This document shows, in pieces, positions 1 through 13,303 of a stretch of 21,914 nt of DNA (position 1 is its first letter; every line of letters starts with the position of its first letter). A model generated the notes under the pieces. It searched no databases, was not told the origin of the DNA, and worked only from the letters and a program-made list of their open reading frames with translations. This DNA comes from a virus. Where the stretch lies: positions 1 to 21,914 of IMG/VR virus record IMGVR_UViG_3300028666_000112; one strand, 5' to 3'. Position numbers and translations under genes: made by a program.

Positions 1-1652
1 GATCGGGCCAGGAGCGTGCCGACAACCGAGGCCCCCAACATGCCGTCGTTCATCCGCTTGGTGGCGGCGTCGAACTTCGCCCAGAAGCCCGCGTTGGCGA
101 GTTCGTCCAGTTCCGTGTTCAGCGTCTTGATGCCCAGCTTCGCTTCAGCCGTGCGCTCGATCCACTGCTTGAAGCCGACCATGATCCCGGCTCCAGCGAG
201 CACGCCGCCGAGCGCCACGAACTTCGCAGCCAGACCGGCGACAGCCGAGCCAGTCACGGAGGCTTCAATCCCGAAGGTCTTCAGGACTCGCGTGGCGATC
301 CCGGCTTTCGTGAACGCTCCAGTCAGGTCAGACAGCGAACGAATCAACGTGCCGACCACGTAGACCGCAGGGCCAGCCGCCGCCGCCAGACCCACGAGGC
401 CAAACACCACAAGCTGAATCGGCCCAGGCAACGCCGCGAAGGCCTTCGCCAGCGTGTCCACAATTGGCAGCAGCACCTTGCCGATATTCACGAGCGCCGA
501 CACGGCCGGCAGCAGCGACCCGCCAACCGTGATCCCGACGTCCTTGATCTGGTTCCACAGGATCTTCAGTTGGTTCGCCGTGGTCGCGAACTTCTTCTGG
601 GCTTCTTCGATGTGCTTGTTGCCGGACTGCCAGCCTTCGTTCGCAATCTTGAGGCTGTCCGTGATGCCGTTCCCAGCCAGCGCCAGCGATTTCATCGTCG
701 CAGCCGTGCGGACGTTCGTGGCGCCGATGTCGCGTACGACGAGGTTGAGGTCGGCGCCTTCACTCTTCATGCGGCCGAGCCCCACCACTACCGCGTTCAC
801 CGCTTCAGCCGAGTTCTTCTTCCACAGCGCCGCGAAGTCTTCCGAGGACATCTTGGCGACCTTGGCGAAGTTTTCGAGCTCCTTGCCGCCTGTGGACACG
901 GCCATCGACATCTTGCCGATCATCGTGCTCATGGCCGTGCCACCGGCTTCCGCGTTGATGCCGACGTTGGCCATCGCCGTGCTGATCGCCATGACTTGCG
1001 GCACGGTCATGCCGGCCGACGCGCCAGCGCCCATCAGGCGCTTGGTGAACTCGAGAATGTCGCCTTCTGTCGCGTTGCTGTTGTTGCCGAGATGCACCAA
1101 CGTGGAGGCCATCTCCGCGATCTTTGTGGTGCCCGTGCCCGCGATGTTGCCGATCTGCGCCAGGCCTATCGCCGCTTCTTCCGTGCTGATTCCGTCGACC
1201 GCCACACCCAACGCCGCCACGTTGCGTGTGAACTTCGCCATCTGGTCGATCGGCACGCCCATCTGACCGCCGAGCGCCGCGATCTTATTGAGCTCGTCCG
1301 TCGTCAGCGGCATTTCCTTCGCCATGTTGCGGAAGGTCTGCGCTAACGCCTTCCCCGCAGCCGTCAACGTCCCGGAACTATCCGCAACACCGTCCACCGT
1401 CTTGGCGACGTTGGCGAAGGACGACTCGAAATCCATCGCCGCCTTCACCGACGCCCCAGCCAGCCCAAGGATCGGCACCGTGACCCACTTGGTCAGCGCC
1501 GATCCGATGGCTTGCGCCTGGGCGCCCGTCTTGGCGAGCTGCTTCTCCCACGCCGCGGCCGAGTCAGCCGACCGCTTCATGGCCTTGTCGTACTGGGCGG
1601 TATCCGCCATTAACAGCACGCGCAGCAAGCCGACCACTGACGAGTTAGCCAT
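1..1652 (-). CDS. Phage tail tape measure protein (partial, runs off window)
   Basis: This reading frame is open from an ATG at 1652 to the left edge, about 550 codons, so the C-terminus is missing. Tape measure proteins run through the tail tube, set tail length and help DNA entry. The N-terminus reads like the TP901-type family: a short start (MANSSVVGLLRVLLMADTAQ), an Ala/Gly/Met-rich body without cysteine clusters, then a conserved-looking stretch around residues 325-375 with KSLALAGNGITDSLKIANEG and LKILWNQIKDVGITVGGSLL. Hydrophobic Gly/Ala/Val-rich segments follow (LVVFGLVGLAAAAGPAVYVV), which could be membrane-active. The start overlaps the stop of the preceding chaperone frame by 8 nt. 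Position directly after a two-frame tail chaperone is the classical order. The family assignment is confident; domains downstream of the window cannot be seen. Confidence 0.92.
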   Translation of the reverse strand, partial: MANSSVVGLLRVLLMADTAQYDKAMKRSADSAAAWEKQLAKTGAQAQAIGSALTKWVTVPILGLAGASVKAAMDFESSFANVAKTVDGVADSSGTLTAAGKALAQTFRNMAKEMPLTTDELNKIAALGGQMGVPIDQMAKFTRNVAALGVAVDGISTEEAAIGLAQIGNIAGTGTTKIAEMASTLVHLGNNSNATEGDILEFTKRLMGAGASAGMTVPQVMAISTAMANVGINAEAGGTAMSTMIGKMSMAVSTGGKELENFAKVAKMSSEDFAALWKKNSAEAVNAVVVGLGRMKSEGADLNLVVRDIGATNVRTAATMKSLALAGNGITDSLKIANEGWQSGNKHIEEAQKKFATTANQLKILWNQIKDVGITVGGSLLPAVSALVNIGKVLLPIVDTLAKAFAALPGPIQLVVFGLVGLAAAAGPAVYVVGTLIRSLSDLTGAFTKAGIATRVLKTFGIEASVTGSAVAGLAAKFVALGGVLAGAGIMVGFKQWIERTAEAKLGIKTLNTELDELANAGFWAKFDAATKRMNDGMLGASVVGTLLAR

Positions 1653-2148
1653 GTGCCTGTGGAGTCCCTTCCGTCCTCGTTAACGCGGCCGGTCTGACCT
1701 TGCCGCCTGTCCGTGCCGCAAACAGTTGCGCGAGCGCCTTCGCTTTCGCGGGCGTCGTGTTCTTGTCCACACGGCTGCTCGAGCCGCGCAGCACCTCGTC
1801 AAACTTCGGCAGTCGCTTCTTCGCCTTGGTCATCACCCACACACGAACCGTCTGATAGGCCTGCGTTGTGTCGCGTTCAAACTCGTGCTGGCGTCGTTCT
1901 TTGGCGGCGACGAGACACCGGAACAGGCCGTGCATCGTCGTGGACCAAAACTCACTGCGGCTCAGGCCGGCGCTGAGAGCACTCAACTCGAGCGCCCTCC
2001 AATCCCACCCCTCTACGCGCCCTGAGCCCTCCGAGGGCGCTGCTTCTTGAGCCCGAGATCCTTGGCGTCTTGTTCGTCGGGTACCGCCGTCGCCGCCATC
2101 GATCCGATGTGCTTGGACAGGTTCACCAGACCCACCTTCGTGATCCAC
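1645..2148 (-). CDS. Tail assembly chaperone, second frame (probable -1 frameshift extension)
   Basis: This frame overlaps the end of the first chaperone gene and is in the -1 frame relative to it. Its only start codon before the conserved-looking part is an ATG at 2148. The residues from there to about 2020 are a low-complexity Gly/Arg/Glu string typical of an out-of-frame reading. The plausible protein begins just past the upstream stop (2013-2015), with GWDWRALELSALSAGLSRSE and FWSTTMHGLF, resembling short tail-chaperone proteins with the pattern W-x-W-R ... Glu-Phe-Trp ... Thr. A long basic helix region follows. The best reading is that this segment is made as a C-terminal extension of the upstream protein by programmed -1 frameshifting, as in lambda G/GT. 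I did not find a canonical slippery heptamer, so independent initiation at 2148 remains possible. Confidence 0.7.
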   Translation of the reverse strand: MDHEGGSGEPVQAHRIDGGDGGTRRTRRQGSRAQEAAPSEGSGRVEGWDWRALELSALSAGLSRSEFWSTTMHGLFRCLVAAKERRQHEFERDTTQAYQTVRVWVMTKAKKRLPKFDEVLRGSSSRVDKNTTPAKAKALAQLFAARTGGKVRPAALTRTEGTPQAHG

Positions 2149-2387
2149 ACGCCGACGTCCTTGATGGACATCTCCGCGTGGTGCTCACGAAGCGCCGCCC
2201 ACATCACCGCTCGGATGTGGAATGCGCTGCCGAGTCCCGCCTTTTGCAGCGCCTCTGTGAACGTGACGATCTGATCGGGCTGACTCAGCACCGTCTCCAG
2301 TTCACACAAGGCGTTCATGTCGAGGACCAGACGGTAGGTCTGGCCCTCGACCTCAATCACCACTTCACCGGTCTTCCGGTTCGCCAT
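2013..2387 (-). CDS. Tail assembly chaperone, first frame (GTA-type)
   Basis: The 124-residue product resembles the gene-transfer-agent-type tail assembly chaperone family. The marker is an N-terminal beta segment followed by an acidic helix: GEVVIEVEGQTYRLVLDMNA and then LCELE, around residues 7-32. These proteins bind the tape measure protein during tail assembly and are absent from the mature particle. The gene lies 14 nt after the tail tube stop and has a GAGGGTTGAG ribosome-binding region before its ATG. The last 15 or so residues are Lys/Arg-rich, and the coding end contains a hairpin (2017-2040) overlapping the stop. The arrangement of tail tube, chaperone, second chaperone frame and tape measure is the standard siphovirus order, which supports the call more than the sequence alone. 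Confidence 0.85.
   Translation of the reverse strand: MANRKTGEVVIEVEGQTYRLVLDMNALCELETVLSQPDQIVTFTEALQKAGLGSAFHIRAVMWAALREHHAEMSIKDVGVWITKVGLVNLSKHIGSMAATAVPDEQDAKDLGLKKQRPRRAQGA
2017..2040 (-). promoter_or_regulatory. Hairpin at the chaperone frame overlap (possible frameshift stimulator)
   Basis: GCGCCCT at 2017-2023 pairs perfectly with AGGGCGC at 2034-2040, leaving a 10-base loop. A competing inner stem (GCCCT at 2026-2030 with AGGGC at 2034-2038) has a triloop. In the mRNA the hairpin begins two bases after the codons AAG AAG and ends just before the first-frame stop. Such structures often stimulate -1 frameshifting, but no X-XXY-YYZ heptamer is visible upstream, so the role is inferred from position. 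Confidence 0.4.
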
Positions 2388-2401
2388 TGCTCAACCCTCA
2401 G

Positions 2402-2893
2402 TTACGGAAGGTCGAACGCCTGCGTCGGCATGATCCCGAACGTGTACTTGACGACGTCCTCGGACCCGACTTCGCTCAGCGAGAAGCCCGTGATGTAGCC
2501 ACGGATCTCGACGTCCGTTTCGGGGCTCGTCGGGAAACGCACGATGAAGTTCCGCGCTTCCCCGTCTTCGGCCAGCGTCGGCATCCCGCCGTTCTGGAAG
2601 GCCCCCGTGCCGCCGCCTGCCGCCGACAAGCTCCACTCATCGGGCATGTAGATCCCGGTGACGGTGAACTCGGACGTGTCGCGGATCCCCGACCGGTGCT
2701 CGTGATGCCGGTTCGGGCTCCGCAGGTGCGTGGTATCGACGTCCGCGAACTTCGTTTCGCCAAACGTGATCGATTCCACGCCTGCGACGGCCGAGAATGT
2801 TTCCGGGCTGTCGCCTTCTCCCACCAGGAACTGCGTGCCGAAGCCGATGAAACCGCTTTCAGCGGCGTAAGTCGTTCCTACTCGTTCTGGCAT
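2402..2893 (-). CDS. Major tail tube protein
   Basis: The 163-residue product fits a siphovirus tail tube subunit, which polymerises into hexameric rings around the tape measure protein. Visible features are an N-terminal IGFGTQFLVG, the segment SPETFSAVAGVESITFGETK near residues 29-48, and VDTTHLRSPNRHHEHRSGI at residues 52-70. These match the Phe-x-x-Val ... Asp-x-Thr pattern of lambda gpV-like and TP901-type tube proteins. The C-terminal half is beta-rich, with RNFIVRFP and VEIRGYITGFSL. A strong Shine-Dalgarno sequence lies six bases before the ATG, and a probable terminator separates the gene from the head-tail genes. Separate, strong expression suits a protein needed in many copies. Confidence is high from sequence and position together. 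Confidence 0.88.
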   Translation of the reverse strand: MPERVGTTYAAESGFIGFGTQFLVGEGDSPETFSAVAGVESITFGETKFADVDTTHLRSPNRHHEHRSGIRDTSEFTVTGIYMPDEWSLSAAGGGTGAFQNGGMPTLAEDGEARNFIVRFPTSPETDVEIRGYITGFSLSEVGSEDVVKYTFGIMPTQAFDLP

Positions 2894-2899
2894 GTGCGT

Positions 2900-2907
2900 T
2901 CTCCTCT
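2900..2907 (-). promoter_or_regulatory. Strong ribosome-binding site of the tail tube gene
   Basis: On the minus strand AGAGGAGA ends six bases before the ATG at 2893. It is the best Shine-Dalgarno match in the window. Most upstream genes instead depend on stop/start overlaps, so this site suggests independent, high-level translation of the tube protein. Confidence 0.7.
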
Positions 2908-2942
2908 ATGCGTCTTGCGCCCCTGACAACTCACTGGCCACC

Positions 2943-3005
2943 AAAAGACAAAGGCCGCTCTGCACGGCTGGAATCACGTCCCAGCACGCACAGAGCGGCC
3001 TTGTC
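2943..3005 (-). terminator. Probable intrinsic terminator before the tail tube gene
   Basis: A long inverted repeat pairs 2947-2962 (GACAAAGGCCGCTCTG) with 2991-3005 (CAGAGCGGCCTTGTC), leaving one bulged A. An inner stem of GCTGG (2967-2971) with CCAGC (2981-2985) extends it. Read on the minus strand, the hairpin ends in a T-rich tail, with TTTGTC inside the stem and TTTT at 2946-2943. This is the layout of a Rho-independent terminator. It would separate the packaging/head/sugar operon from the tail tube gene, or allow only partial read-through. Confidence 0.7.
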
Positions 3006-3099
3006 TCTGATGGCCTTGTCGGTACTCGCAGGCGCTGACCTAGCGCCGTTCGGATGCCTCCTAGCGAGCCCGTTCCAAAGAAGTCGTTACGTCAACTCA

Positions 3100-3537
3100 T
3101 TACCCCTTGTGCAAGACGATCACGTCTCGCACGATCCGAAACACGTTCACTTCATCCGCGTCGAAGAACTCGCGAACGTCGTCTGGGATGATGGCTTCGA
3201 TCGCCATGCTGCCCACCGTCCCGGAATAGCCAATCAATCCCGTGCCGTCACCAGGTCCACGCACGGCTTCGTCTACCGCTCGTGCGCCCGCATACCAGTC
3301 GTAGCCGCCGTACTTCAGCGCGGCCGAGTCAATCTGGATCCGCGTGCGAAACTGCGTCACGCCGCCACGGAGATGCACCGGCTGCGACTCACTGATCCGC
3401 TGCACCCGGATACACCGTGGCGTGGACGTCGTGAAGATCGACTGCGGGAACTGCGACGTGTAGATCCGCTGGCTCACCAGCGCAGTCACCGCAGCCGTGG
3501 CCTTCAGACGAGTCACGATGGCTTCAGCCGCCGTCAC
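3100..3537 (-). CDS. Tail terminator / tail completion protein (DUF3168-like)
   Basis: The 145-residue product resembles the DUF3168 / gpU-like tail terminator family, which caps the tail tube and joins it to the head. It opens with a helical segment (AAEAIVTRLKATAAVTALVS) and then RIYTSQFPQ, the usual N-terminal pattern of short helix followed by a Pro-containing strand. A central beta-rich region contains RTRIQIDSAA, and the C-terminus has a DVREFFDADE segment. I chose the GTG at 3537 because it overlaps the gp10-like stop by 4 nt (GTGA). The longer frame to 3621 only adds residues that shadow the neighbour. It is the last gene before the probable terminator. Position between the gp10-like and tail tube genes is exactly that expected. 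Confidence 0.82.
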   Translation of the reverse strand: MTAAEAIVTRLKATAAVTALVSQRIYTSQFPQSIFTTSTPRCIRVQRISESQPVHLRGGVTQFRTRIQIDSAALKYGGYDWYAGARAVDEAVRGPGDGTGLIGYSGTVGSMAIEAIIPDDVREFFDADEVNVFRIVRDVIVLHKG

Positions 3538-4393: not shown

Positions 4394-4998
4394 CAGATCA
4401 GGCCATTCCTCTCGCCCCAAAAGCGCCTAAGCGTTTCACGAGAAGGCAATTCTCCGAGGTTGTATTGCGAATCAATGCACAGGATGATCCCATTCAAGAT
4501 CGACGGCGCTGGAGTCTTAGTCCAATCCTCAAATCCAACCCTGTATTCGATCGTGACCGCATCGCCATACTGCGACACAGATGGCCACGATCCTCCATCC
4601 ACTGGCCGCAACTTGCTTGGCCGAACACCGGCACGAGCCAACAGATAGGTTTCTGGGCTACCCAACATGGACTGTGTTTCGCCGTCGCCATCCAAATAAT
4701 TGAAAGACACTATGTCGATCACAGGCCGCTGGCTGAGCTCAATGTCGCCACACGGGAACGCGCTCAAAGTGTCTCGCCATGTCTGCGGGCTAAGACGAAC
4801 GCCCCATTGGTTGTCCCTCTCAGCGGTATCAGCGATCGATTCGATGAGCCTCCTAATGTGCTCGTCATCGACGGAACCGTTAGCGACCCTGAGAACCTTG
4901 TCTCGCACGTACGACAGAGACAACACTGGATCAGTTGGAGGCTCTACCTGTTCCGAGCGCCACGTAATCCCGTAGTCCCACGGCGGTGTCCATGTCAT
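4393..4998 (-). CDS. Head-tail connector protein, phiE125 gp8 type
   Basis: The 201-residue product matches the phiE125 gp8-like family, a gp6-type connector ring docking under the portal. Visible markers are LIESIADTAERDNQWGVRLS, TWRDTLSAFPCGDIELSQRP, and VIDIVSFNYLDGDGE, then YGDAVTIEYRVGFED and PAPSILNGIILCIDSQYNL. The Asp-x-x-x-Gly-x-x-Leu, Phe-Pro and Ile-x-Tyr-x-Asp-x-x-Gly pattern is typical. Its ATG overlaps the stop of the last sugar-cassette gene (ATGA, 4995-4998), so it depends on translation of the cassette. Base composition is clearly lower in G+C than its neighbours (26 of 60 in the line at 4441), suggesting a different recent history from the rest of the head-tail block. Confidence 0.88.
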   Translation of the reverse strand: MTWTPPWDYGITWRSEQVEPPTDPVLSLSYVRDKVLRVANGSVDDEHIRRLIESIADTAERDNQWGVRLSPQTWRDTLSAFPCGDIELSQRPVIDIVSFNYLDGDGETQSMLGSPETYLLARAGVRPSKLRPVDGGSWPSVSQYGDAVTIEYRVGFEDWTKTPAPSILNGIILCIDSQYNLGELPSRETLRRFWGERNGLI

Positions 4999-5717
4999 GA
5001 CGCCACCGCCAGATCCTGCTTGTAGTGCTGCGCCACCCAGGACAGGTGTTGCACTTCAGGGCTCCACGGATTCAGGGCTCCGTGAAAGCTCACCACCTTG
5101 GCGTTGTCTGGTAACGTGTACGGGTCAGACGCCAAGTGGTTGCGGTAGCTATACACGCCGTCTTTCTTGCCCCACTTCGCTTCACCTCCGCCGAGCGTGT
5201 AGCTGATAAAACCCTGGTCACTTCCCCACGACCCAGCACGACGCGACTGCTCTGGTGACGTCTGCGGATCGAAGGTGTTCCAGACTTGCGGCCTCGATCC
5301 AGCCGTCAGCAGCATCATCGAGCCGTTGTAATGGCTCCCTGGTTGCGGGTTCGTGTCCCCGAACGCCACGAAGTCTTCTGGCCGGTCCCACACCGACGAC
5401 ACGTCACCAATCAGCACCATGTCCAAGTCGATCGACACGAACCGCTTGCCGAACACCGACGCGATTTCAGGATGGAACATCCGAAGCCGCCGATAGCAAC
5501 TCGGGTTCTTGCCGCCGTGCGGTGAGGGCACTTCCACGAAGTCACGGAAGTCAGGAATGACTTCGACGCTTCGGTCAATGCCGTCTGCCTGGTCCGTGAC
5601 GCAAATGACGTTCACCTTGCGCGGATAGGACCGACGCACCATTGCCGCCAGTGTGTTGACGTGCTCAGCGGTGAACGTCGCGCGATACCGACGCATCGGC
5701 TCCCACTTCCACGTCAC
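4995..5717 (-). CDS. Glycosyltransferase, GT-A fold with DxD motif
   Basis: The 240-residue product looks like a GT8-like, retaining-type GT-A glycosyltransferase. It begins TWKWEPMRRYRATFTAEHVN with a nucleotide-binding strand at VNVICVTDQADGID. It has a DLD motif at residues 97-99 inside KRFVSIDLDMVLIGDVSSVW, the metal and sugar-nucleotide site. Later features are an acceptor-side YNGSMMLL segment, GSDQGFIS at 165-172 and FHG at 211-213 before NPW. I chose the GTG at 5717, 7 nt after the preceding stop, because the residues encoded further upstream shadow the previous gene. Its stop is coupled to the connector gene. The sugar transferred cannot be deduced. It marks the downstream edge of the cassette. 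Confidence 0.8.
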   Translation of the reverse strand: MTWKWEPMRRYRATFTAEHVNTLAAMVRRSYPRKVNVICVTDQADGIDRSVEVIPDFRDFVEVPSPHGGKNPSCYRRLRMFHPEIASVFGKRFVSIDLDMVLIGDVSSVWDRPEDFVAFGDTNPQPGSHYNGSMMLLTAGSRPQVWNTFDPQTSPEQSRRAGSWGSDQGFISYTLGGGEAKWGKKDGVYSYRNHLASDPYTLPDNAKVVSFHGALNPWSPEVQHLSWVAQHYKQDLAVAS

Positions 5718-5724
5718 GACCGAC

Positions 5725-6501
5725 TCAAGCAACACGCTCAGCCTCCACGATGGGATACACCTGCTCGTACGGGATGAGCCCATGCAGCGGACGCCAGCCG
5801 GCGATCTTGGCGCGTTCGGCCTTCGCCTTCGCCAGCCCTGCGTCATTCACCGGATCGTTCTTGCGCGTGTAAACCTCTGGCGGTGTTGATGCGTCCGCGA
5901 TGACTTCGCGCGGATAGCGCACGATCACGTCCGTCATAAGCACAACGGAACGAGAGGCCGCAACGACACGATCGGAGAACTCGCCGCTGGTGCCGTAATG
6001 TCCCGATAGCCGCTCGTCGTAGCCACCGGACAGGTCGAACATGGCCTTGGTGAGCAACCAGGTATCGTTGTGTGGCTTCCACGGTGCAGCCGCAGCGACG
6101 TCATACGGCCACGCACTAGGCGCCGTGACGCGCTTGAACTTGTAGGCCGACTCGGCGTCCAGCGGCCCGTTCAGCAGCCGCGCCATCGTCTCGGCCGGGA
6201 TCGTGTGGTCAATGTCCGTGAGCAGCAACCATTCCGTCGTCGCCACCTTCGCGCCAAGGTTCCGGCACGCCAGCCAGTTCCACCGCTTCTTCTTCGTGAG
6301 TCGGTAGAGGCGCAACGACGCGAGTCCTTCGATCTGCACGGCCTTCGCGCTGAGCCTGAAGCCCTTCGGTGAGCAGTCATCAACCACAACGACGTGAAGT
6401 CTCGAGCGCAGTTCAGCCGGATAGGACGCCCACACGGCCTGTTGCTCGAGGAACATGCCAGAGTTCACGAAGAACGGCAGCACGAGTGTCAGTTCTCTCA
6501 T
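5725..6501 (-). CDS. Family 2 (GT-A) glycosyltransferase
   Basis: The 258-residue product shows the GT2 layout. An N-terminal strand RELTLVLPFFVNSG is followed by LHVVVVDDCSP with the nucleotide-contacting Asp pair at residues 41-42. The conserved NLGAKVATTEWLLLTDIDHT carries a DID motif at 96-98. Further on come WPYDVAAAAPW and LSGGYDERLSGHYGTSGEFS, the acceptor-binding/GGYDE region common in GT2 enzymes. The start at 6501 overlaps the upstream methyltransferase stop by 4 nt (ATGA). The N-terminus is cytosolic with no signal peptide or membrane helix. GT2 enzymes use nucleotide sugars to build glycans by inversion; the substrate is unknown. Neighbouring methyltransferases suggest it contributes to a methylated oligosaccharide. 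Confidence 0.87.
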   Translation of the reverse strand: MRELTLVLPFFVNSGMFLEQQAVWASYPAELRSRLHVVVVDDCSPKGFRLSAKAVQIEGLASLRLYRLTKKKRWNWLACRNLGAKVATTEWLLLTDIDHTIPAETMARLLNGPLDAESAYKFKRVTAPSAWPYDVAAAAPWKPHNDTWLLTKAMFDLSGGYDERLSGHYGTSGEFSDRVVAASRSVVLMTDVIVRYPREVIADASTPPEVYTRKNDPVNDAGLAKAKAERAKIAGWRPLHGLIPYEQVYPIVEAERVA

Positions 6502-7112
6502 GCGACCACCCAGGCCCATGAGGGCGACTTATCAGCGGCGAACACGAACCACGGTGAAATGCCGTTGGCGTGCGTGTAGTGGTCAACCGCGTCGGCTACT
6601 TGGATGAAGTCTTTGCGGCCACGCTCGATGTTGTAGTCGTGACCGGCGATCACCATGCCAGGTTTCACCTTGGGCAACCACGCTTTGATGTCCGCCGTTA
6701 CGTGAGCGCGGAGATGGTTCCCATCGATATAGGCCGCACCGAGTGAGCGATCAGCAATCTGCTTCGCTCCGTCGATAGACGTCGCACGAACGATCTGATG
6801 CGGGAACCCAGCCAACGCCGCCTCTGTGCGCTCAAGCGCACGGTCGAGCCGAGACTTGACGTTCTTGCGCTCGATGTAGCCCTGTTGCGGCGCCCACGGG
6901 TCAACCGCGTAGAGGAACGCGCCAACTTCTTCGCAAATCGTGCGAGCGAACGCGCCTTCCCAGACGCCAATCTCAGCGACCGTCTGCACGCCCAGCGCCT
7001 TCCACCACGCGCGCAACTGCTTGCGCCCACAGTCAGGCAGGATGACTCGGCCTGTGGCTCCTGCGAGGTCCACCGTCGTCAACGCCTGAAGGGCTTGGAG
7101 TTGCGGCGTCAT
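6498..7112 (-). CDS. Class I SAM-dependent methyltransferase (Methyltransf_24 / CmcI-like)
   Basis: The 204-residue product has a Rossmann methyltransferase signature. Motif I is VAEIGVWEGAFARTICEEVG at residues 45-64, the acidic ribose-binding strand is LYAVDPWAP at 67-75, and motif IV/V is AAYIDGNHLRAHVTADIKAW. A PGMVIAGHDY segment at 151-160 has the Gly-His-Asp that resembles metal-binding sites in the CmcI-like and Methyltransf_24 groups. These are often sugar or small-molecule O-methyltransferases. The ATG at 7112 overlaps the upstream stop (ATGA); the longer N-terminus to 7136 is not needed. It sits between another methyltransferase and a GT2 enzyme, which favours a glycan substrate over DNA. 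No DNA methylase catalytic motif (NPPY/DPPY or PCQ) is visible. Confidence 0.83.
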   Translation of the reverse strand: MTPQLQALQALTTVDLAGATGRVILPDCGRKQLRAWWKALGVQTVAEIGVWEGAFARTICEEVGAFLYAVDPWAPQQGYIERKNVKSRLDRALERTEAALAGFPHQIVRATSIDGAKQIADRSLGAAYIDGNHLRAHVTADIKAWLPKVKPGMVIAGHDYNIERGRKDFIQVADAVDHYTHANGISPWFVFAADKSPSWAWVVA

Positions 7113-7663
7113 TCGGGCACCAACACGGCCACCCACTCACGGGACGGCTTCTTCAGCGGAGACACGGGCGGATCTGGCTGCACGGCAAAGCCAGCGAATC
7201 GAACCTTTTCAGCCCACCACTCGGCCGACTCAACAATCAGATGAGCGTTGCGGCCATCGGCCATCGTCTTGTTAGACGGGCGAGTCGCAATCACGACGAA
7301 CACGGCCTTGCGCGCGAGCAACCGTAGATGCGCCAGCACCCGGTCAAGCAATTCCGGTTCGACGTGCTCCAGCACATCTGTCGAAACCACAAGGTCCGCA
7401 AACTCCGGCCGTCCGTTCTTGCCAGGAATGGCCGGGTCGTATTCAGACAGCCGCACGTTGCCCTTGTCGGCAGATAGCGCCTTCACCAGCGAGCCTTCAC
7501 CGCAGCCGTAATCCAGCACCGACGTCGCGCCGAACCGCTGGATCAAGGCGCGGACACCATCCGCCCACTTGTTTCCTTTGCCGCCGTAGCCGTTCGGACG
7601 CGAGTGCAGTTCCACCTGCAGCGCACGATAGGCCGGCGTGATGCAATCAGAGGGCGAGATCAT
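7109..7663 (-). CDS. Class I SAM-dependent methyltransferase
   Basis: The 184-residue product has a clear SAM-binding motif, SVLDYGCGEGSLVKAL at residues 48-63. The second acidic strand is RLSEYDPAIPG and motif IV is FADLVVSTDVLEHVEPELLD at 88-107, with the Asp-x-Leu-Glu-His signature of the methyltransferase 11/12 group. The protein is shorter than many of this family, and the C-terminal half (HLIVESAEWWAEKVRFAGFA) probably forms the substrate lid. It overlaps both neighbours by 4 nt. Related proteins are frequent in phages and prophages, where the substrate is usually unknown. In this operon, flanked by a GT8-like and a second methyltransferase, a sugar hydroxyl is the reasonable but unproven target. 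Confidence 0.87.
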   Translation of the reverse strand: MISPSDCITPAYRALQVELHSRPNGYGGKGNKWADGVRALIQRFGATSVLDYGCGEGSLVKALSADKGNVRLSEYDPAIPGKNGRPEFADLVVSTDVLEHVEPELLDRVLAHLRLLARKAVFVVIATRPSNKTMADGRNAHLIVESAEWWAEKVRFAGFAVQPDPPVSPLKKPSREWVAVLVPE

Positions 7664-8463
7664 GCCGCACCTTTCGTGGGCCTGTCGTAGGTGAAGTTCT
7701 TGCGCGTGGCACCGCCGAATGCGTCAACGCGGTAGCGTTCGATGCCGTAGCCGTTCTCGGTCGCCTCCACCAGCAACTTGTCGAACAACTCCTGCAACTC
7801 AGGCATCGGATGAGCAGCGATCTCGCCCGTGTACCAATGCGTTTTTCCCTCACGAGCCAACCTAGGAATGCAGTGCTTCAACTGCACCTGGGTGGACATG
7901 CGCGAATAGTGGATTGCCTTCACGCGCGGGTCGTAGATCGTGCTGTAGCCTGCCGCGTCGATGGCGTTCCAATCGCCTTGCGGGCGGTCAACGAGATGGT
8001 CGTTGTCCTTGAAGTAGTTGTGCAGCGTGCCCTGCGGATCGTCCATCTGCTTCAACCTGTCGAGGCCGGGCACATGGCCCTTGGCCTTCTCGCAGTCCCA
8101 CAGGATGGAGCACATCTTCAGCTTGCCGTGCGGCTTACTCGACTTCTTGGTCAGCATGACGTTCGGGATGGGCTGGTCCCACAACTCACCGATGTCAGCC
8201 ATGAGCACGAAGTCACTATCGAGGTAGATTCCACGGCCCTTGAAGTCACACATAGCCGGAATGGAATGGCGAAAATGCGAGAACGGCGTGCGACCGCTGG
8301 CGCACTTCCAACCCGAATACGGGCCGGTAGCGGCTTGCTGCATCCAGACGATATCTACGTCGCGCGTGGTGTTCTTGCGGACGGACCACTCCAACACGGC
8401 CTGGCTTTCCAAGTCGCAATTGGTTCCGTCCGCTCCGACAAATAGCTTGATCGCTTCGCTCAC
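7660..8463 (-). CDS. GT8-like glycosyltransferase
   Basis: The 267-residue product resembles retaining GT8 enzymes (glycogenin and LPS galactosyl/glucosyltransferase relatives). It begins SEAIKLFVGADGTNCDLESQ, the usual first strand and loop. It has DSD at residues 82-84 in GRGIYLDSDFVLMADIGELW, the metal-binding motif. Later features are a RPQGDWNAIDAAGY acceptor region and AIHYSRM near 183-189. The real start is the GTG at 8463, which overlaps the endonuclease stop by 4 nt (GTGA). The frame upstream to 8577 shadows the endonuclease gene. Its start is therefore coupled to the inserted homing endonuclease. Sugar specificity cannot be inferred. Confidence 0.82.
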   Translation of the reverse strand: MSEAIKLFVGADGTNCDLESQAVLEWSVRKNTTRDVDIVWMQQAATGPYSGWKCASGRTPFSHFRHSIPAMCDFKGRGIYLDSDFVLMADIGELWDQPIPNVMLTKKSSKPHGKLKMCSILWDCEKAKGHVPGLDRLKQMDDPQGTLHNYFKDNDHLVDRPQGDWNAIDAAGYSTIYDPRVKAIHYSRMSTQVQLKHCIPRLAREGKTHWYTGEIAAHPMPELQELFDKLLVEATENGYGIERYRVDAFGGATRKNFTYDRPTKGAA

Positions 8464-9323
8464 GCCACTGCCTTCCGTTTCTTTGCCCATCTCGCTTCGA
8501 TGGCTTTGCGTGTTTTCGCCTTGCCTTCTGGTGTATTCCAAGACGCCTTCAGCCGAGCTATCTGCGCGGCCTTCCATTCAGGGTCAGCCCACTTGGCTCT
8601 AATCTTCTCGGCGAAATTCTGTCGCGTCTCAGGCCTGGACCAAATCTTCGCGGACGTCTCTGGACTGTGGCCCTTTCGCCCACCCTCTAGATTGCGAAGA
8701 ACAACAGCAGCAAGTCCTGGCTTGTTCAGGAATCGATGCCTCGCCTTGGCAGCCATGTTTGCCTTGAAGGCAGGCGACTGTTTAGCAACGGTTGATTTAG
8801 CTTGGGCTAGCGCACGTTGCTCTGGCGTAATAGCGTTCAACCGAAAGGCTCGCTGAGCCCGAGCCTCTGGAGTAGCCAACTTGGCCAACTGCGCCTCAGA
8901 CTGCCTGCGCCTGGTTTCTGCCGTAACAACTGCAGCGCCCAGGCCTCCAGGGGAGACATTCCACAATTGCCCGCGTGGAACGTTGGCTATTTCAGCCACC
9001 TCGCGCTCAAATGCCTGCTCGTGCGTCAACCCATCAATAACCAACTCGGCAGACGCGTGCGCTCCTAACTTCAGCGCAGACACCAAAGGCCGATACAGAC
9101 GGAGTGGAAGCGATACCTTTTCGCCCGCTTCCTGGCTTTTCAAAATCCTGCGAGCAGTGCGGATGTGTTCGTTCGCCCGCTTCATCGGGATGCCACTGCC
9201 CTTGCCGATGTAGCGGACCACTCCGTCCACTGCGATGGCGTACACGTAGGCGTTTTGCCCAGTATTCATCGGCCTATATTCTACATTCGCCGTATGTTCG
9301 CCGCGAGACAAATAGGGCATCAT
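8460..9323 (-). CDS. GIY-YIG homing endonuclease with NUMOD-like tail
   Basis: The product (287 residues from the ATG at 9323, or 269 from an ATG at 9269) begins with a GIY-YIG nuclease domain. AYVYAIAVDGVVRYIGKGSG gives the degenerate first motif and a clear YIG, followed by Arg and NEH. A conserved-type Glu follows in FEREVAEI. The C-terminal half is a series of basic, Trp-containing repeats (SPETSAKIWSRPETRQNF, KIRAKWADPEWKAAQ, ASWNTPEGKAKTRKA, EARWAKKRK), like NUMOD DNA-binding modules. Such enzymes cut intron-less or intron-containing alleles to spread themselves. No intron boundaries or split host gene are visible here, so it looks free-standing. Composition is lower in G+C than the glycosyltransferase genes around it, especially near 9240-9320. 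The start is uncertain; 9323 gives an ATGA overlap with the zinc-motif gene. Confidence 0.82.
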   Translation of the reverse strand: MMPYLSRGEHTANVEYRPMNTGQNAYVYAIAVDGVVRYIGKGSGIPMKRANEHIRTARRILKSQEAGEKVSLPLRLYRPLVSALKLGAHASAELVIDGLTHEQAFEREVAEIANVPRGQLWNVSPGGLGAAVVTAETRRRQSEAQLAKLATPEARAQRAFRLNAITPEQRALAQAKSTVAKQSPAFKANMAAKARHRFLNKPGLAAVVLRNLEGGRKGHSPETSAKIWSRPETRQNFAEKIRAKWADPEWKAAQIARLKASWNTPEGKAKTRKAIEARWAKKRKAVA

Positions 9324-9496
9324 TCGAGCGGCCTCGCGGCTTCTCGTTGCAAGATCGCCCACTCAGCGACACATGCCCAGTCGCAGAAATCCAACTCAAG
9401 CGGCGACACTGGATCGCGCTCAATGACTACTCGCTTGTAGTCGCGTTCGGACACTACGCGCTTCTTGCAGAAGTCGCAGACCAACTGCGTGCTCAT
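9320..9496 (-). CDS. Small CxxC/CxxxC zinc-finger-like protein (58 aa)
   Basis: A 58-residue gene fills the space between the TOD1-like glycosyltransferase and the endonuclease. It reads MSTQLVCDFCKKRV at the start, with cysteines at residues 7 and 10, and then FCDWACVAEWA with cysteines at 38 and 42. The four cysteines could bind one zinc ion, in a ribbon or MYM/TRASH-like treble-clef knuckle. The remainder is charged and ends REAARPLE. The ATG overlaps the upstream stop by 4 nt (ATGA, 9493-9496), and the gene continues the overlap chain, which argues that it is real. The function is unknown. Small zinc-ribbon proteins of this kind are common in phage operons and may act in protein or nucleic-acid contacts. 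Confidence 0.72.
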   Translation of the reverse strand: MSTQLVCDFCKKRVVSERDYKRVVIERDPVSPLELDFCDWACVAEWAILQREAARPLE

Positions 9497-10167
9497 GCCG
9501 GCACCCGATACGGCTTCCGCCGCTTCTTGTGGTCCGCGTGGTCATGGGTGCTGTAGGGGTTCGCGTGTCGCGTGCCCTGCAGCGCCTTGATCTCGAGTCC
9601 GTTCGCCCAGGCTGAATAGTCCAGGCTCAACTGCGTGTTGTCGCCGCGGTGCATGTCGAACTCGCGCGCCCACGTCTCGTTGAACCGGCCAACCGCCTTG
9701 GAGTGATCACGCACGATCACGCATGAAATGGACAGGTGCGAATCGGGATAGCCATCCTTCCGGTAGGCCTCCATTTGCGGATCGATGTCCTGCTTGCGGG
9801 CTGATCCGACTTTCACTAGTTCTCTGGCTTCGTCGTAGACAGACGCGCGGTTATGGTGCCTCAGCGCGGCAATCGGTGCGTCTCCGGCGTCTCTGAGCAA
9901 CGCCGCCGCGTCTATCAGCGTGAACGAGGCATCGATCCAAATCACACGCGAGTACTCGTCAAACGTCTGATCGGGCAGCGCCCGCAGGCGCCATGCCAAG
10001 CGCCTTGGATCCGCGCCTGCAGCCACGTCGATCTGAAACAGTTCCCAGCCCATTGGGTCGGGGAACAGCGACAGATCGTCCACGAGGCAGACCGCTCGAT
10101 CGACGCCGGTTGGCGCTCGCTTCAAGCTGTCGCAGCCGCCGAGGATCGTGGTGAAGACGACGTTCAT
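9493..10167 (-). CDS. Glycosyltransferase, TOD1/MUCI70-like (DUF616)
   Basis: The 224-residue product resembles the TOD1/MUCI70 glycosyltransferase-like family (formerly DUF616). It opens MNVVFTTILGGCDSLKRAPT with a DEYSRVIWIDASFTLIDAAA segment around residues 70-89. The Asp in WIDAS takes the place of the usual DxD aspartates. An RHHNRASVYDEARELVK stretch and YRKDGYPDSHLSISCVIVRD follow, then FDMHRGDNTQLSLDYSAW, a family-type Arg-Asp-Gln-Leu-Ser motif with local changes. The true start is the ATG at 10167, overlapping the preceding methyltransferase stop (ATGA); upstream in-frame residues belong to that neighbour. It ends in a basic His/Lys/Arg tail. Family members are poorly characterised, so donor and acceptor are open. 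Confidence 0.78.
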   Translation of the reverse strand: MNVVFTTILGGCDSLKRAPTGVDRAVCLVDDLSLFPDPMGWELFQIDVAAGADPRRLAWRLRALPDQTFDEYSRVIWIDASFTLIDAAALLRDAGDAPIAALRHHNRASVYDEARELVKVGSARKQDIDPQMEAYRKDGYPDSHLSISCVIVRDHSKAVGRFNETWAREFDMHRGDNTQLSLDYSAWANGLEIKALQGTRHANPYSTHDHADHKKRRKPYRVPA

Positions 10168-10757
10168 CCGTTCACCGTGAGCACGTAATGCCCCCACTTG
10201 CCGTCACGCCATGAGGCTTTCACCGTGAACCCGTAGCCGCAGATCGCCTCAGCCAACTGGTCGGACGTCTGCCAGAACAGCGCCTCGTTCCCCGGCTTCT
10301 CGCGCCACTTCGCTTCCGTGGCCCCGTCGCGGTTCGTCGCCATGAGGTAGAACCGCCCGCCAGGTGCCAACACGCGCTTCACTTCGGCGGTCAGTTTGTC
10401 CAAGTACAGGCAGTGATCCAGGCTGTTGCTGTAGACGTTCGGGAACGAGCCGTCAGGAAACTGGATGTTGTGCCAGTCGCCTTGCAGGACGGTCGGTCCA
10501 ACCGGGTGCAGGTCGATCCCGACTGATCCCTTGAACCCGGCCTCTGTCGCGCCGATGGACTCCGCGCCAGTCCTAGCACCGAGGCAGAGCACCGCGCCCT
10601 TGTTCAGATGCTCAGCCGCCCGCGTGAAGTAGGCGCGGAAGCTGCGGATGTTCTTCGGCAGGTGTTCCAAGAGCGAGTCACGGTTGCCACGGGCCTTGCC
10701 CCCCTGGTGGTAGACGTAGGACTCGTACGATTCAAAGTCGCGATGCGCGAGGCTCAC
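10164..10757 (-). CDS. Class I SAM-dependent methyltransferase
   Basis: The 197-residue product has a Rossmann methyltransferase core: GAVLCLGARTGAESIGATEA (motif I, residues 54-73), GSVGIDLHPVGPTV (ribose-binding Asp at 82), and GDWHNIQFPDGSFPNVYSNS (93-112) followed by LDH. The post-motif strand is VLAPGGRFYLMAT. This is the methyltransferase 11 pattern, with a slightly variant glycine loop (GARTG). The N-terminal 40 residues are aromatic and basic and could contact the acceptor. It overlaps its neighbours by 4 nt on each side (10164-10167 and 10754-10757). No nucleic-acid methylase signature is visible. The neighbouring glycosyltransferases suggest a sugar substrate, but this is inferred from position only. 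Confidence 0.84.
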   Translation of the reverse strand: MSLAHRDFESYESYVYHQGGKARGNRDSLLEHLPKNIRSFRAYFTRAAEHLNKGAVLCLGARTGAESIGATEAGFKGSVGIDLHPVGPTVLQGDWHNIQFPDGSFPNVYSNSLDHCLYLDKLTAEVKRVLAPGGRFYLMATNRDGATEAKWREKPGNEALFWQTSDQLAEAICGYGFTVKASWRDGKWGHYVLTVNG

Positions 10758-11605
10758 TGAATAGCCCCCATTCGCATGGTCCTTACCGCCAGAGTCGCGG
10801 CAATTTTCCTGGCAACTTTGGGATCAGAAAATGCCCTATCGATCCGTTCAAACTGCGCCTTGGTGCCGCCCATTTGGCCCTGGAAGTAGGCAAGCGGATC
10901 GGTGCCCTTTGAGAGCGGCCAAAACACTGCCGAGTCAAAAACGAGATTGCCAGACCTGTATGACCAAAACCACGGCTTCTGTCGCTCAAACCCAACCGCG
11001 AACACACGCCTTAACCGATCTAGCGATCGCTCGCCAGACAGAAAGCATTCCAGCCAACGAAGCATTAGGAACTGGGCTCCTCTGTGCTTTGATGCGTCAT
11101 GCTTTACTCCGTTGGCTGTTACGGCCCCAGGACTAGGGAACATCTCGCGCAAAGCATCACGAAGAGTGTTTGATGTCGAGTCCCTCCCGCGCATGAAGTT
11201 CACCATCCACACCGCATTCCTGAACGGAACTCTTGTCATGGCCACGTACAAGTCAGAAGCCATGTGCCTGTCGAGCCCACAACAGAAGTCCATCAGAACC
11301 GCTGACACAGGCCGCGACGACGGCCACGACATAAGCGCGTCGATGGCATCTGCGTTGATAGCAGAGGCGCCTAACTCTCTAATCGCATCAACGTTCTGTC
11401 TGGACCGATCGATCGCGATCATGGAATCAGCATGGACTCCCTTTGACAAAGCAATCTCTCTGTCCATGTCCTGGGGACCGGCCAAATACAAGATCGGCTC
11501 AACGCGCTCGCGTCCAGACGTTCTACTAAGCACCTCGTTCCACATAGCCCGGCGCCAGTTGTTCTTCTGGCCGAACTTGTAGTCCTTGTTAGCCCCGTCA
11601 GCCAT
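10754..11605 (-). CDS. Rossmann-fold methyltransferase-like protein
   Basis: The 283-residue product is methyltransferase-like but divergent. It has a strand-loop PILYLAGPQDMDREIALSKG at residues 37-56, in place of a canonical Gly-x-Gly loop. MIAIDRSRQNVDAIRELGAS holds the acidic ribose-binding position, and VSAVLMDFCCGLDRHMASDL follows at 100-119. The C-terminal half (WFWSYRSGNLVFDSAVFWPL) is aromatic, possibly a substrate pocket. The ATG shares a base with the upstream stop (TAATG). Hand counts give about 50% G+C (30 of 60 in the line at 11401), well below the glycosyltransferase genes, so it may have been acquired separately. It could be a DNA or other methyltransferase rather than a glycan enzyme; the class is likely but the substrate unknown. 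Confidence 0.68.
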   Translation of the reverse strand: MADGANKDYKFGQKNNWRRAMWNEVLSRTSGRERVEPILYLAGPQDMDREIALSKGVHADSMIAIDRSRQNVDAIRELGASAINADAIDALMSWPSSRPVSAVLMDFCCGLDRHMASDLYVAMTRVPFRNAVWMVNFMRGRDSTSNTLRDALREMFPSPGAVTANGVKHDASKHRGAQFLMLRWLECFLSGERSLDRLRRVFAVGFERQKPWFWSYRSGNLVFDSAVFWPLSKGTDPLAYFQGQMGGTKAQFERIDRAFSDPKVARKIAATLAVRTMRMGAIQ

Positions 11606-11829
11606 TACGGCTCGCCTTTCAGGGATCGCAACTGAGTCTTGGCGTCACGAATCACGTCAACGGCTTCAGTTTCTGCATCGTATGCCCGCGCCAATACCTT
11701 CTCGCACTCGACAATGAACGCTTGGAGTTCAGCATTCTCAGCAGCTAAACGAGCCGTTTCTCTAGCGATCTGGACATGCGACAGCACGACCTGGCCGCAC
11801 GATGGACAGCACTTGTAGTCGTCGCTCAC
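11605..11829 (-). CDS. Small CxxC and coiled-coil protein (74 aa)
   Basis: The 74-residue product begins SDDYKCCPSCGQVV with cysteines at residues 7, 8 and 11, a half zinc-knuckle. A long helical heptad-type region follows (QIARETARLAAENAELQAFI, then VECEKVLARAYDAETEAVDV), ending KTQLRSLKGEP. With one CxxC pair it could bind zinc as a dimer, which the coiled coil would allow. The start is a GTG overlapping the stop of the MptE/Maf-like gene (GTGA, 11826-11829), and the stop overlaps the methyltransferase-like gene by one base. It shares the lower G+C of that gene. The function is unknown; an oligomerisation or adaptor protein fits the look of the sequence but is a guess. Confidence 0.72.
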   Translation of the reverse strand: MSDDYKCCPSCGQVVLSHVQIARETARLAAENAELQAFIVECEKVLARAYDAETEAVDVIRDAKTQLRSLKGEP

Positions 11830-12458
11830 AGCCAGTCCTCCAACCGTCCACGCTCAAACGCCGTCACCGCGCTAATCGGTGAGCAGTTCACGATCCGCAC
11901 GCCCTTCGACTTCGCGTCCTGGTTCAACCGCTTCAGCGGCGCCATGTGATTGCGAAAGTGGTCCTGTGGTGGGTTCTGCAACGGGTGCTTGCAGAAGTGC
12001 CCTCCGGTCATGTCGTAGCCGAGCAGCACGATCGTGCGAGCCCCGAAGTGATACGCCACGTTGATCGCGCTCGTCCCTGAGTCGAAGCCAGCAACGTGAT
12101 CGCGCATTTCGCACAGGTGATCGTGGTCTTTCGTGCGGGTCACGCGCTTCACAGTCTCAGGCAACAACGGATGCGACTTGCTGCGGACGATCACGTACGT
12201 ACCCGTGAACGTCTTGATCAGCGGCAGGCAAATCGAGTCGAACGCTTCGCCGGACATGAACAGCACGTCGGCATTGGGCCGCGTCAACACGCCATGCTTG
12301 ACGGCAATGAACCGGCCCTTCAGCCGCTTGATCGTCTCAGCCTGTGGCCCAATGCTTTCACCGCTACAGAGCACGAAGCACGGCTCATCCGCCGACCATT
12401 CCTGCGGGATGTGCCACGTCTTCGGCTGCGTCCAGACAGGGGCCATCGTCGCGCTCAC
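11826..12458 (-). CDS. MptE/Maf-like (DUF115) putative glycosyltransferase, second copy
   Basis: The 210-residue product has the layout of MptE-like / DUF115 proteins, a group that includes Maf flagellin-glycosylation enzymes. It shows PCFVLCSGESIGPQAETIKR with the CSGES loop at residues 31-35, RFIAVKHGVLTRPNADVLFM, and SGTSAINVAYHFGARTIVLL from about 127, then GYDM ending at 150 and a nearby His154. The C-terminus reads VRIVNCSPISAVTAF. The protein is a diverged paralogue of the one at 14031, sharing the Gly-Ala-Arg/Lys-x-Ile-Val-Leu-Leu-Gly-Tyr-Asp/Asn-Met block. Starts and stops overlap the neighbours by 4 nt (GTG start at 12458). Family members include nonulosonate transferases and pterin pyrophosphokinases; in this context a glycosyltransferase role is favoured but not proven. 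Confidence 0.72.
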   Translation of the reverse strand: MSATMAPVWTQPKTWHIPQEWSADEPCFVLCSGESIGPQAETIKRLKGRFIAVKHGVLTRPNADVLFMSGEAFDSICLPLIKTFTGTYVIVRSKSHPLLPETVKRVTRTKDHDHLCEMRDHVAGFDSGTSAINVAYHFGARTIVLLGYDMTGGHFCKHPLQNPPQDHFRNHMAPLKRLNQDAKSKGVRIVNCSPISAVTAFERGRLEDWL

Positions 12459-13303
12459 GCCGCCCGCCTTTCCGCCGCGCGTTCCAGGATGCAGAGATAC
12501 TGAGCCGCGATCGTGTCCAGCCGAAACTCACGGCTGCGCTGTCGCCCGAGCTCATACGCATGCTGACGCACCGCAGGCTCACACGCCATCTGCAGCAGCG
12601 ACACCAGATCGGCCTGTGACTCTGCTGTCGCGCCACACGGCTTGAGCTCGGCATACCCTGCCGAGAGTTGACTGACCATCGGCCGTCCGGCCGTGATCGC
12701 GTTGACGTGCTTGACGCCGCTTTTCCACTGCCGGCACACCCAGCCGTCCCACTTGCCGTCACGGAACGACACGAACACGTCCACGTCACGCAAGTCAGCC
12801 GGGTTGACGACGAACTCGAGCCCCAGCGATCCGCAGGCATGTTCCAGCGCAGGCCCCCAGGAGCCGAGATACTTCTTGGCCCCGTCGTAGCCAACCATGT
12901 CGGCCTTGGCCTTGATCGGTGTCGCCTGCAGGTTCACGCGGCACTGGTGCGGCAGATACACGCCGCCCAAGTCCTCAGCCATTGCCTTCGTCGCGCCGAT
13001 CACCAGCGACACGCCAGCCGCGACCTTGATGCTGTCGGCATGAGCGATCAAGGACTCGCGCGAATCCTGGTTATGTTCCGGCTGCGCCCAGAAGTCCAAG
13101 GCATCCCAGACCACCGGCACGCTGCAGGCCTTCGCTTCGTTCGCCCACTGCACCGCGGCACGCTTCACCAGCACCACGAGATCAGCCCAGGACCAGTCCT
13201 GATGTGTCGGCACAGTCGTGACGCGAGCGCCGATCGCTCGGCCCAGCTGCACACCACGCATAGCCCACGATCCTTTGCCCGCACCAATCATTAGGACGTT
13301 CAT
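12455..13303 (-). CDS. Glycosyltransferase-like protein, GT-B type
   Basis: The 282-residue product looks like a GT-B (group 1) glycosyltransferase. The N-terminal half has a Rossmann start (MNVLMIGAGKGSWAMRGVQL) and DLVVLVKRAAVQWANEAKAC, and contains VPVVWDALDFW near residue 70. The C-terminal half begins around ADMVGYDGAKKYLGSWGPAL, with DVDVFVSFRDGKWDGWVC at 173-190. Its HVNAITAGRPMVSQLSAGYA at 199-218 corresponds to the nucleotide-sugar-binding Glu/Gly region of GT4-type enzymes. A basic helix (REFRLDTIAAQYLCILERAA) closes the protein, as is common. It is shorter than typical 350-400 residue GT4 members. It overlaps both neighbours by 4 nt (ATGA upstream, GTGA downstream). The assignment is by fold pattern; donor unknown. 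Confidence 0.72.
   Translation of the reverse strand: MNVLMIGAGKGSWAMRGVQLGRAIGARVTTVPTHQDWSWADLVVLVKRAAVQWANEAKACSVPVVWDALDFWAQPEHNQDSRESLIAHADSIKVAAGVSLVIGATKAMAEDLGGVYLPHQCRVNLQATPIKAKADMVGYDGAKKYLGSWGPALEHACGSLGLEFVVNPADLRDVDVFVSFRDGKWDGWVCRQWKSGVKHVNAITAGRPMVSQLSAGYAELKPCGATAESQADLVSLLQMACEPAVRQHAYELGRQRSREFRLDTIAAQYLCILERAAERRAA

Follow-up and report, generated by a model that had tools for sequence, protein, structure and literature searches.

How is the second of two overlapping genes translated when its reading frame offers no credible start codon near its conserved part? The question is raised by the viral record IMGVR_UViG_3300028666_000112, which is 21,914 bases long (the window) and carries a putative tail chaperone gene pair on its minus strand. 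Comparison with related loci makes it highly probable that the first gene (ORF1) and the second frame (ORF2) are joined by a −1 programmed frameshift at a C_CCU tetramer, and that they encode G-like and T-like chaperones of a siphophage. The frameshift pair is supported by the constant −1 phase of the second frame, the lack of start codons, a conserved C_CCT in phase, foldable RNA 3′ of it and the position of the genes. The features of the pair are as follows, with lengths in amino acids (aa) or nucleotides (nt).

2013..2387, minus strand: ORF1, G-like first tail assembly chaperone, 124 aa (PHROG 2115, "tail protein", E 1.3e-14)
2034..2040, minus strand: probable slip site G_CGC_CCT, with the conserved core C_CCT at 2037-2034 (in phase in 33 of 40 clusters of relatives)
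2013..2015, minus strand: zero-frame stop TAG of ORF1, 18 nt past the slip site
1645..2184, minus strand: second frame, T-like, −1 relative to ORF1 (domain recognised by a hidden Markov model [HMM] from about 2001; phrog_19318, E 1.7e-11)
1984..1986, minus strand: TTG in the −1 frame, a possible internal start, with GGAGG at 2000-1996 ending 9 nt before it
1648..2387, minus strand: predicted fusion product, 247 aa, made of 118 aa (2387-2034) and 129 aa (2034-1648, −1 frame), with the predicted junction ...KKQRP-SEGSG...

The gene pair and its relatives

No stop interrupts the −1 frame between the TGA at 2187-2185 and its own stop at 1647-1645, a stretch that spans the whole overlap. Near its conserved part it offers just two start codons, GTG 2148, which lies 108 nt 5′ of the slip site, and TTG 1986, which lies inside the domain. 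The second frame is of the lambda G/GT type in that it overlaps the first in −1 and has no start of its own, TTG 1986 being a possible start within the domain.

Relatives were sought by scanning viral contigs with an ORF1 alignment, the query containing no slip motif. The scan gave 60 loci, of which 57 were examined and, together with the window, make up a set of 58. L005-L007 were omitted from the counts because they do not differ from L004 anywhere in the 900 bases of the gene pair, and L062 (on the same contig as L002) and L063 lie outside the analysed set. For the second protein, an HMM was made from 17 −1 frames, the window's among them, and applied to all six frames of the loci. It matched 51 of the 58; 17 of these matches are the seeds, which match by construction, and the remaining 34 are not of this kind. 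All 51 matches are in −1 and none is in frame 0; seven loci were unmatched. An earlier note, made from the letters of the window, had proposed a G/GT-like −1 chaperone pair whose second frame lacks a credible start near the conserved part, and both proposals agree with this phase, with the two start codons named above and with the location of the pair between a major tail protein gene and a tape measure gene.

Clustering at 80% ORF1 identity reduced the 58 loci to 41 clusters. A second domain can be recognised in 40 of them (by sequence motif only in clusters L003, L040 and L056); L033, in which no second domain was found, was excluded. In 33 of the 40 clusters, not a single ATG, GTG or TTG occurs in the −1 frame from the upstream stop to the domain. 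Sequence comparison thus shows the −1 phase and the lack of starts, as it does the conservation and phase of C_CCT.

At the profile level, PF11836 (Phage_TAC_11) matches 27 of 40 aligned ORF1 family members at E ≤ 0.01, and PF09550 (Phage_TAC_6) matches 21 of 35 aligned ORF2 members at E ≤ 0.1, the best E value being 2.9e-7. The family phrog_19318, matched by the second frame of the window, is annotated as of unknown function. An AlphaFold model of ORF1 has a mean predicted local distance difference test (pLDDT) score of 91.6. In BFVD, fold neighbours of this model with E values of 0.001-0.1 bear the names tail assembly protein or chaperone, the top match (E 4.6e-5) is an uncharacterised protein, and a fold search of the PDB gave nothing at E ≤ 0.001. 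The structure model of ORF2 has a mean pLDDT of 81.8. In single-sequence searches of phages, ORF1 gave one weak match for the window, one for L020 and none for L041 or L037, and ORF2 of the window gave no match in viral contigs and phages. Against genome contigs, query A3 found no relatives and ORF1 of L020 found five; query A4 found two relatives in viral contigs. The gene pair occurs in the named bacterial genomes of Brucella tritici (L065, G_CGC_CCT) and Mesorhizobium (L066, A_AAC_CCT). The second gene has its own ATG in Pelagibacterium montanilacus (L068) and Maritalea myrionectae (L069).

The probable slip site

ORF1 of the window contains no XXXYYYZ heptamer in any phase, as had been noticed earlier, and so offers no lambda-type X_XXY_YYZ site. 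It does contain an in-phase Z_ZZN tetramer that allows re-pairing in −1, namely C_CCT at 2037-2034. An in-phase C_CCT is found 15-90 nt 5′ of the second domain in 33 of the 40 clusters; when the codons of each ORF1 were shuffled (2000 runs), the mean was 3.3 clusters and the maximum 10. By phase, 37 occurrences of CCCT fall in the slip phase, one in another and none in the third. The earlier note had raised an unusual slip site and had suggested aligning relatives in order to find a conserved one. The comparison of relatives yields such a site, CGC_CCT or more generally C_CCT, in these 33 clusters; the candidates that the note had named, the AAG AAG codons and the GGC near the stop, are not conserved, the conserved place being CGC_CCT at 2039-2034.

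The bases around the core vary. The site is a textbook heptamer in 12 of the 33 clusters as A_AAC_CCT and in three (L039, L040, L047) as C_CCT_TTN. In the other 18 it is not, and reads CCGCCCT (seven), GCGCCCT (six, window included), GGACCCT (three), GCACCCT (one) or CTCCCCT (one). The seven clusters without C_CCT have A_AAA_AAA (four), A_AAA_AAC, G_GGA_AAA with G_GGG_GGA, and C_CCC_CCG (L041). The conceptual fusions were placed on a quick maximum-likelihood tree (47 rows, with trait columns kept and 17 of 44 inner branches open), and among its C_CCT rows the 5′ half of the site went through at least 13 state changes. L037 (A_AAC_CCT) and L038 (G_GAC_CCT) are 96% identical over 730 nt with a six-base difference there, and constitute a natural pair in which the contribution of the P-site codon can be measured. 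The codon before CCT is CGC at 13 of 30 sites and AAC at 12, as against 7.2% and 5.2% of the NNC codons elsewhere in these ORF1s. The P-site codon is therefore not free, yet two different codons serve. An upstream Shine-Dalgarno-like element is present in 23 of the 40 clusters, compared with 516 of 2967 control positions (17%).

A separate observation concerns eight loci (L014, L016, L017, L021, L023, L024, L027 and L028) in which A_AAA_AAA, 57-72 nt 5′ of the second domain, replaces C_CCT. At these sites the slippage may also be transcriptional.

RNA structure 3′ of the slip site

Three features of the RNA are of relevance.

2029..2033, minus strand: spacer CGGAG, 5 nt, between slip site and helix, read from the sequence
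1959..2028, minus strand: candidate stimulatory stem-loop, its helix seen in relatives
2017..2040, minus strand: inverted repeat GCGCCCT/AGGGCGC of the earlier note, −13.8 kcal/mol when folded alone

The RNA 3′ of the slip site is likely folded. When the 75 nt 3′ of the site were compared with dinucleotide shuffles in the 40 clusters, the mean z score of the minimum free energy was −2.0, with 21 clusters below −2, 28 below −1 and the window at −2.79. A stem beginning 4-8 nt past the site beats at least 95% of the shuffles (P < 0.05) in 19 of the 40 clusters.

The closing helix of the candidate stem-loop pairs GGCTCAGG (2028-2021) with CCTGAGCC (1966-1959). In a set of 20 sequences that was hand-picked after folds had been inspected, the helix itself having been named by eye after the RNAalifold result, 82.8% of the cells of this helix of 8 base pairs (bp) can pair, compared with 74.8% for shuffles, of which none in 500 came as high; in slid versions of the helix at most 42% do. 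Five of the eight pairs have changed on both sides, which was equalled in 7 of 500 shuffles. For a Z_ZZN site a 3′ stimulator is looked for at a distance of 4-10 nt. In the window the helix begins 5 nt past the site, and its pair probability depends on the number of nucleotides folded: 0.97-1.0 at 75 and 80 nt, 0.24 at 85, about 0.67 at 110, and 0.01-0.02 at 90, 95 and 130.

The helix 2028-2021/1966-1959 is preferred as the candidate stimulator over the hairpin 2040-2017, a choice that is supported but not settled; its exact form is tentative, in the window above all. The hairpin had been described as straddling the end of the first frame. The inverted repeat does exist, but it stops one base short of the TAG at 2015-2013 and does not straddle that end. 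The slip site lies inside its 5′ arm, and some of its bases are shared with the helix seen in relatives. As a conserved stimulator the hairpin was rejected: its like occurs in one of the 40 clusters, the window.

Proposed mechanism

Most ribosomes would end at the TAG at 2015-2013 and produce the 124-aa protein, and a minority would shift by −1 at G_CGC_CCU (2040-2034). The tRNA-Pro, after reading CCU, would re-pair with CCC (2037-2035). By codon-anticodon reasoning, the tRNA-Arg on CGC pairs with neither GCG nor CCG, and this preceding tRNA would not re-pair. The −1 frame would resume at UCG and yield the 247-aa fusion. The downstream folded RNA, probably the helix 2028-2021/1966-1959, would stall the ribosome and so allow a weak tetramer to function. 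If the analogy with lambda holds, binding of the tape measure protein would fall to the ORF1 part and recruitment of tail tube subunits to the ORF2 part. We infer the occurrence and rate of the shift, the identity of the moving tRNA and the chaperone roles.

In Escherichia coli, tetramers are ranked A_AAG >> U_UUC > U_UUU > C_CCU = C_CCC > A_AAA in the cited part of Sharma et al. (2014, PMC4066793); there they are barely shifty without a 3′ stimulator, and C_CCU is shifty with one. Atkins et al. (2016, PMC5009743) describe more shifting from codons whose tRNAs wobble more, and slippage of A_AAG after CGA, e.g., in IS1222 G_CGA_AAG. According to the general view, tRNA-Arg(ICG) reads CGU, CGC and CGA (PMC10454642). 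Because this tRNA reads CGC, N_CGC_CCU may conjecturally act like the CGA-preceded slips.

A broader proposal can be put forward only tentatively, the balance being somewhat against it. C_CCU may form a natural class of −1 sites with two main interchangeable forms, A_AAC_CCU, in which two tRNAs would slip, and N_CGC_CCU, in which only tRNA-Pro would do so, the inosine of tRNA-Arg freeing the third codon base. The class would extend across TAC_11/TAC_6 phages and gene-transfer-agent-like clusters, in evolutionary exchange with a plain start of the second gene.

PF11836 loci in genomes

A second sample was drawn from the five genomes reached via L065-L069 and from 150 genomes of one host's order, the host included. 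It comprises 66 PF11836 loci (38 returned and 28 low-scoring), and 57 intermediate-score matches and one short one lie outside it. The ORF1 stop was present in 65 of the 66 loci, and 50 matched a second-protein HMM at E < 1e-3; one of the two HMMs used was made from the −1 frames of 40 of these loci and the other was the viral one. The second frame is in −1 at 47 of the 50 loci and in +1 at three.

We scored each of the 50 loci for a start within 90 nt and for a slip motif, counting loosely as a motif every in-phase XXXYYYZ or C_CCT that lies between −100 and a point just within the domain. A slip motif without a start was found at 27 loci, a start without a motif at 16, both at seven and neither at none (P = 5e-8, Fisher's exact test). 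The three +1 loci are scored as without a motif by construction; for the 47 −1 loci alone, the table becomes 27 (motif without start), 0 (neither), 7 (both) and 13 (start without motif), with P = 6e-7. As related genomes are not independent, these P values are only a guide. C_CCT itself occurs at −100 to −10 in 23 of the 50 loci. The high-scoring loci are, judging by PF11836, presumably gene transfer agent clusters. The family points to tail chaperone pairs alternating between a frameshift fusion and separate initiation, a matter relevant to whether tails can be assembled without the fusion.

Some loci of this sample have other arrangements. In L090, L101, L108, L114 and L115 the second domain opens with two heptamers that overlap, C_CCT_TTC / T_TTC_CCT, which may be a further slip arrangement of this gene pair. 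At L109 and L112, NNC_CCT_TGA sites place a zero-frame stop directly after the slip codon, and L103 is similar with one codon between. The −1 frame reads TTG at the sites of L109 and L112, so that a slip and a TTG start are indistinguishable there.

Alternative explanations

The second protein could instead be made independently from TTG 1986, with no frameshift, the GGAGG at 2000-1996 ending at a distance of 9 nt from it; some relatives do have an ATG or GTG of their own (the 16 of 50 second-sample loci with a start and no slip motif, and L068 and L069). We consider this improbable: initiation at TTG 1986 would lose WDWRALE, the beginning of the conserved part, and leave the in-phase C_CCT unexplained, and no start precedes the domain in 33 of the 40 clusters. 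A −1 shift elsewhere in the overlap, for example at AAG AAG or at UCA GGG C near the stop, is likewise quite improbable. From 2184 on, no stop closes the window's −1 frame anywhere in the overlap, and other clusters use A_AAA_AAN or G_GGA_AAA sites; among the motifs scanned, however, only C_CCT recurs in the same phase and place in most clusters, and AAG AAG and GGC do not. That the overlap is an artefact of sequencing or assembly, or that the gene pair has decayed, is barely credible. The record is a viral contig and may be a fragment, but its phase, lack of starts and motif are found again over the 40 clusters and in Brucella tritici and Mesorhizobium, and none of the 51 HMM matches lies in frame 0, as a single fused frame would.

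Several observations weigh against a −1 shift at C_CCU aided by the proposed helix. The 33 of 40 clusters with C_CCT were counted in an interval (−90 to −15) fixed after the sites had been seen, so that the count is not a pre-set test; the shuffle control was run on that interval too. Among the tetramers ranked in E. coli, C_CCU is weak (PMC4066793). L018 has an additional G_GGA_AAC 5′ of its C_CCT. The window has no well-placed upstream Shine-Dalgarno-like element, the nearest AGGA being 18 nt upstream, and it does have TTG 1986 with its GGAGG. Its ORF1 scores 21.6 bits against PF11836, under the curated cut-off of 27.8, and its ORF2 has no Pfam match, PF09550 included. As to the helix, it is absent from the best fold of the window at 85, 90, 95 and 130 nt, where other folds compete; RNAalifold gave no consensus structure for a 21-sequence alignment; and the helix is missing from 4 of the 20 aligned rows. 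Its 3′ arm consists of the codons of a conserved Gly-Leu-Ser, and its conservation may therefore be partly at the protein level.

Comparison with known systems

Frameshifted tail chaperones are already known, as is C_CCU as a weak synthetic site. The pair in the window shares with lambda G/GT the gene position, the −1 overlap, the lack of a start in the second frame and the expectation of a minor fusion product. The lambda G/GT slip site is G_GGA_AAG, an X_XXY_YYZ heptamer, and the site in the window is not of this form. No lambda G or T family appeared in the Pfam scans, which involved no direct homology test with lambda G or T.

The chaperones of RcGTA are tail chaperone 1 (g10, pfam11836) and tail chaperone 2 (g10.5), the names g10 and g10.5 being those given in the cited section of PMC11409702. 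Profiles place the relatives in the same families (PF11836 for ORF1, PF09550 for ORF2), on the inference that g10.5 is the PF09550 protein. In contrast to the window, part of the PF11836 loci in the second sample has its own ATG or GTG for the second gene and no slip motif.

The closest mechanistic parallels are IS1222 G_CGA_AAG and the E. coli C_CC.U reporters (PMC5009743, PMC4066793, in the parts cited), where, as proposed for the window, one tRNA re-pairs in −1, a CGN codon precedes and a 3′ stimulator is required. Five tetramers are reported from IS elements, of which the cited text of PMC4066793 names A_AAG, U_UUU, U_UUC and A_AAA; the fifth is not named in that text, so C_CCU is possible there. 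Within the open-licence literature searched, in the portions covered, no C_CCU in a tail chaperone is described, including PRFect (PMC10885494), which lists eight backward motifs identified in actinophage genomes by visual inspection, and Antonov et al. (2013, PMC3711429); the survey of Xu et al. (2004) is outside that scope, and priority is unsettled. Searches for frameshifted genes lean on X_XXY_YYZ and could therefore overlook fusions of this kind, or assign the second gene a start that it does not use.

Gene order and other observations in the window

The pair is flanked by two tail genes.

2402..2893, minus strand: major tail protein gene, 5′ neighbour of ORF1 (phrog_158, E 3.5e-13; PF16461 below its cut-off)
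3..1652, minus strand: tape measure protein gene, cut by the end of the window (PF10145, E 2.2e-21)

The order on the minus strand is major tail protein, ORF1, second frame and tape measure, as in the lambda G/GT arrangement, and the tape measure ATG (1652-1650) overlaps the end of ORF2. No sigma-70-like promoters were found within 1600-3200 and no tRNA genes within the window.

Between the tail completion and major tail protein genes, a long imperfect inverted repeat was seen by eye at 2950-3004, with T-rich sequence after it on the minus strand and a terminator-like appearance; the computed listing includes part of it (2968-2954). About 14 frames on the same strand occupy 4995-14651, between the head completion genes and the portal gene, an unusually large insert for a head-tail operon. 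Several of these frames, listed as open frames only, resemble by eye sugar transferases, methyltransferases and, at 8460-9362, a GIY-YIG-like nuclease. Adjoining the portal gene, 14651-15583 encodes a protein of collagen-like triple-helix repeats whose end weakly resembles CBM5/12. The frame at 17316-19367 encodes 683 aa with a prohead protease domain (PF04586) at residues 65-163, and its long C-terminal part would by position be the major capsid protein, a possible protease-capsid fusion.

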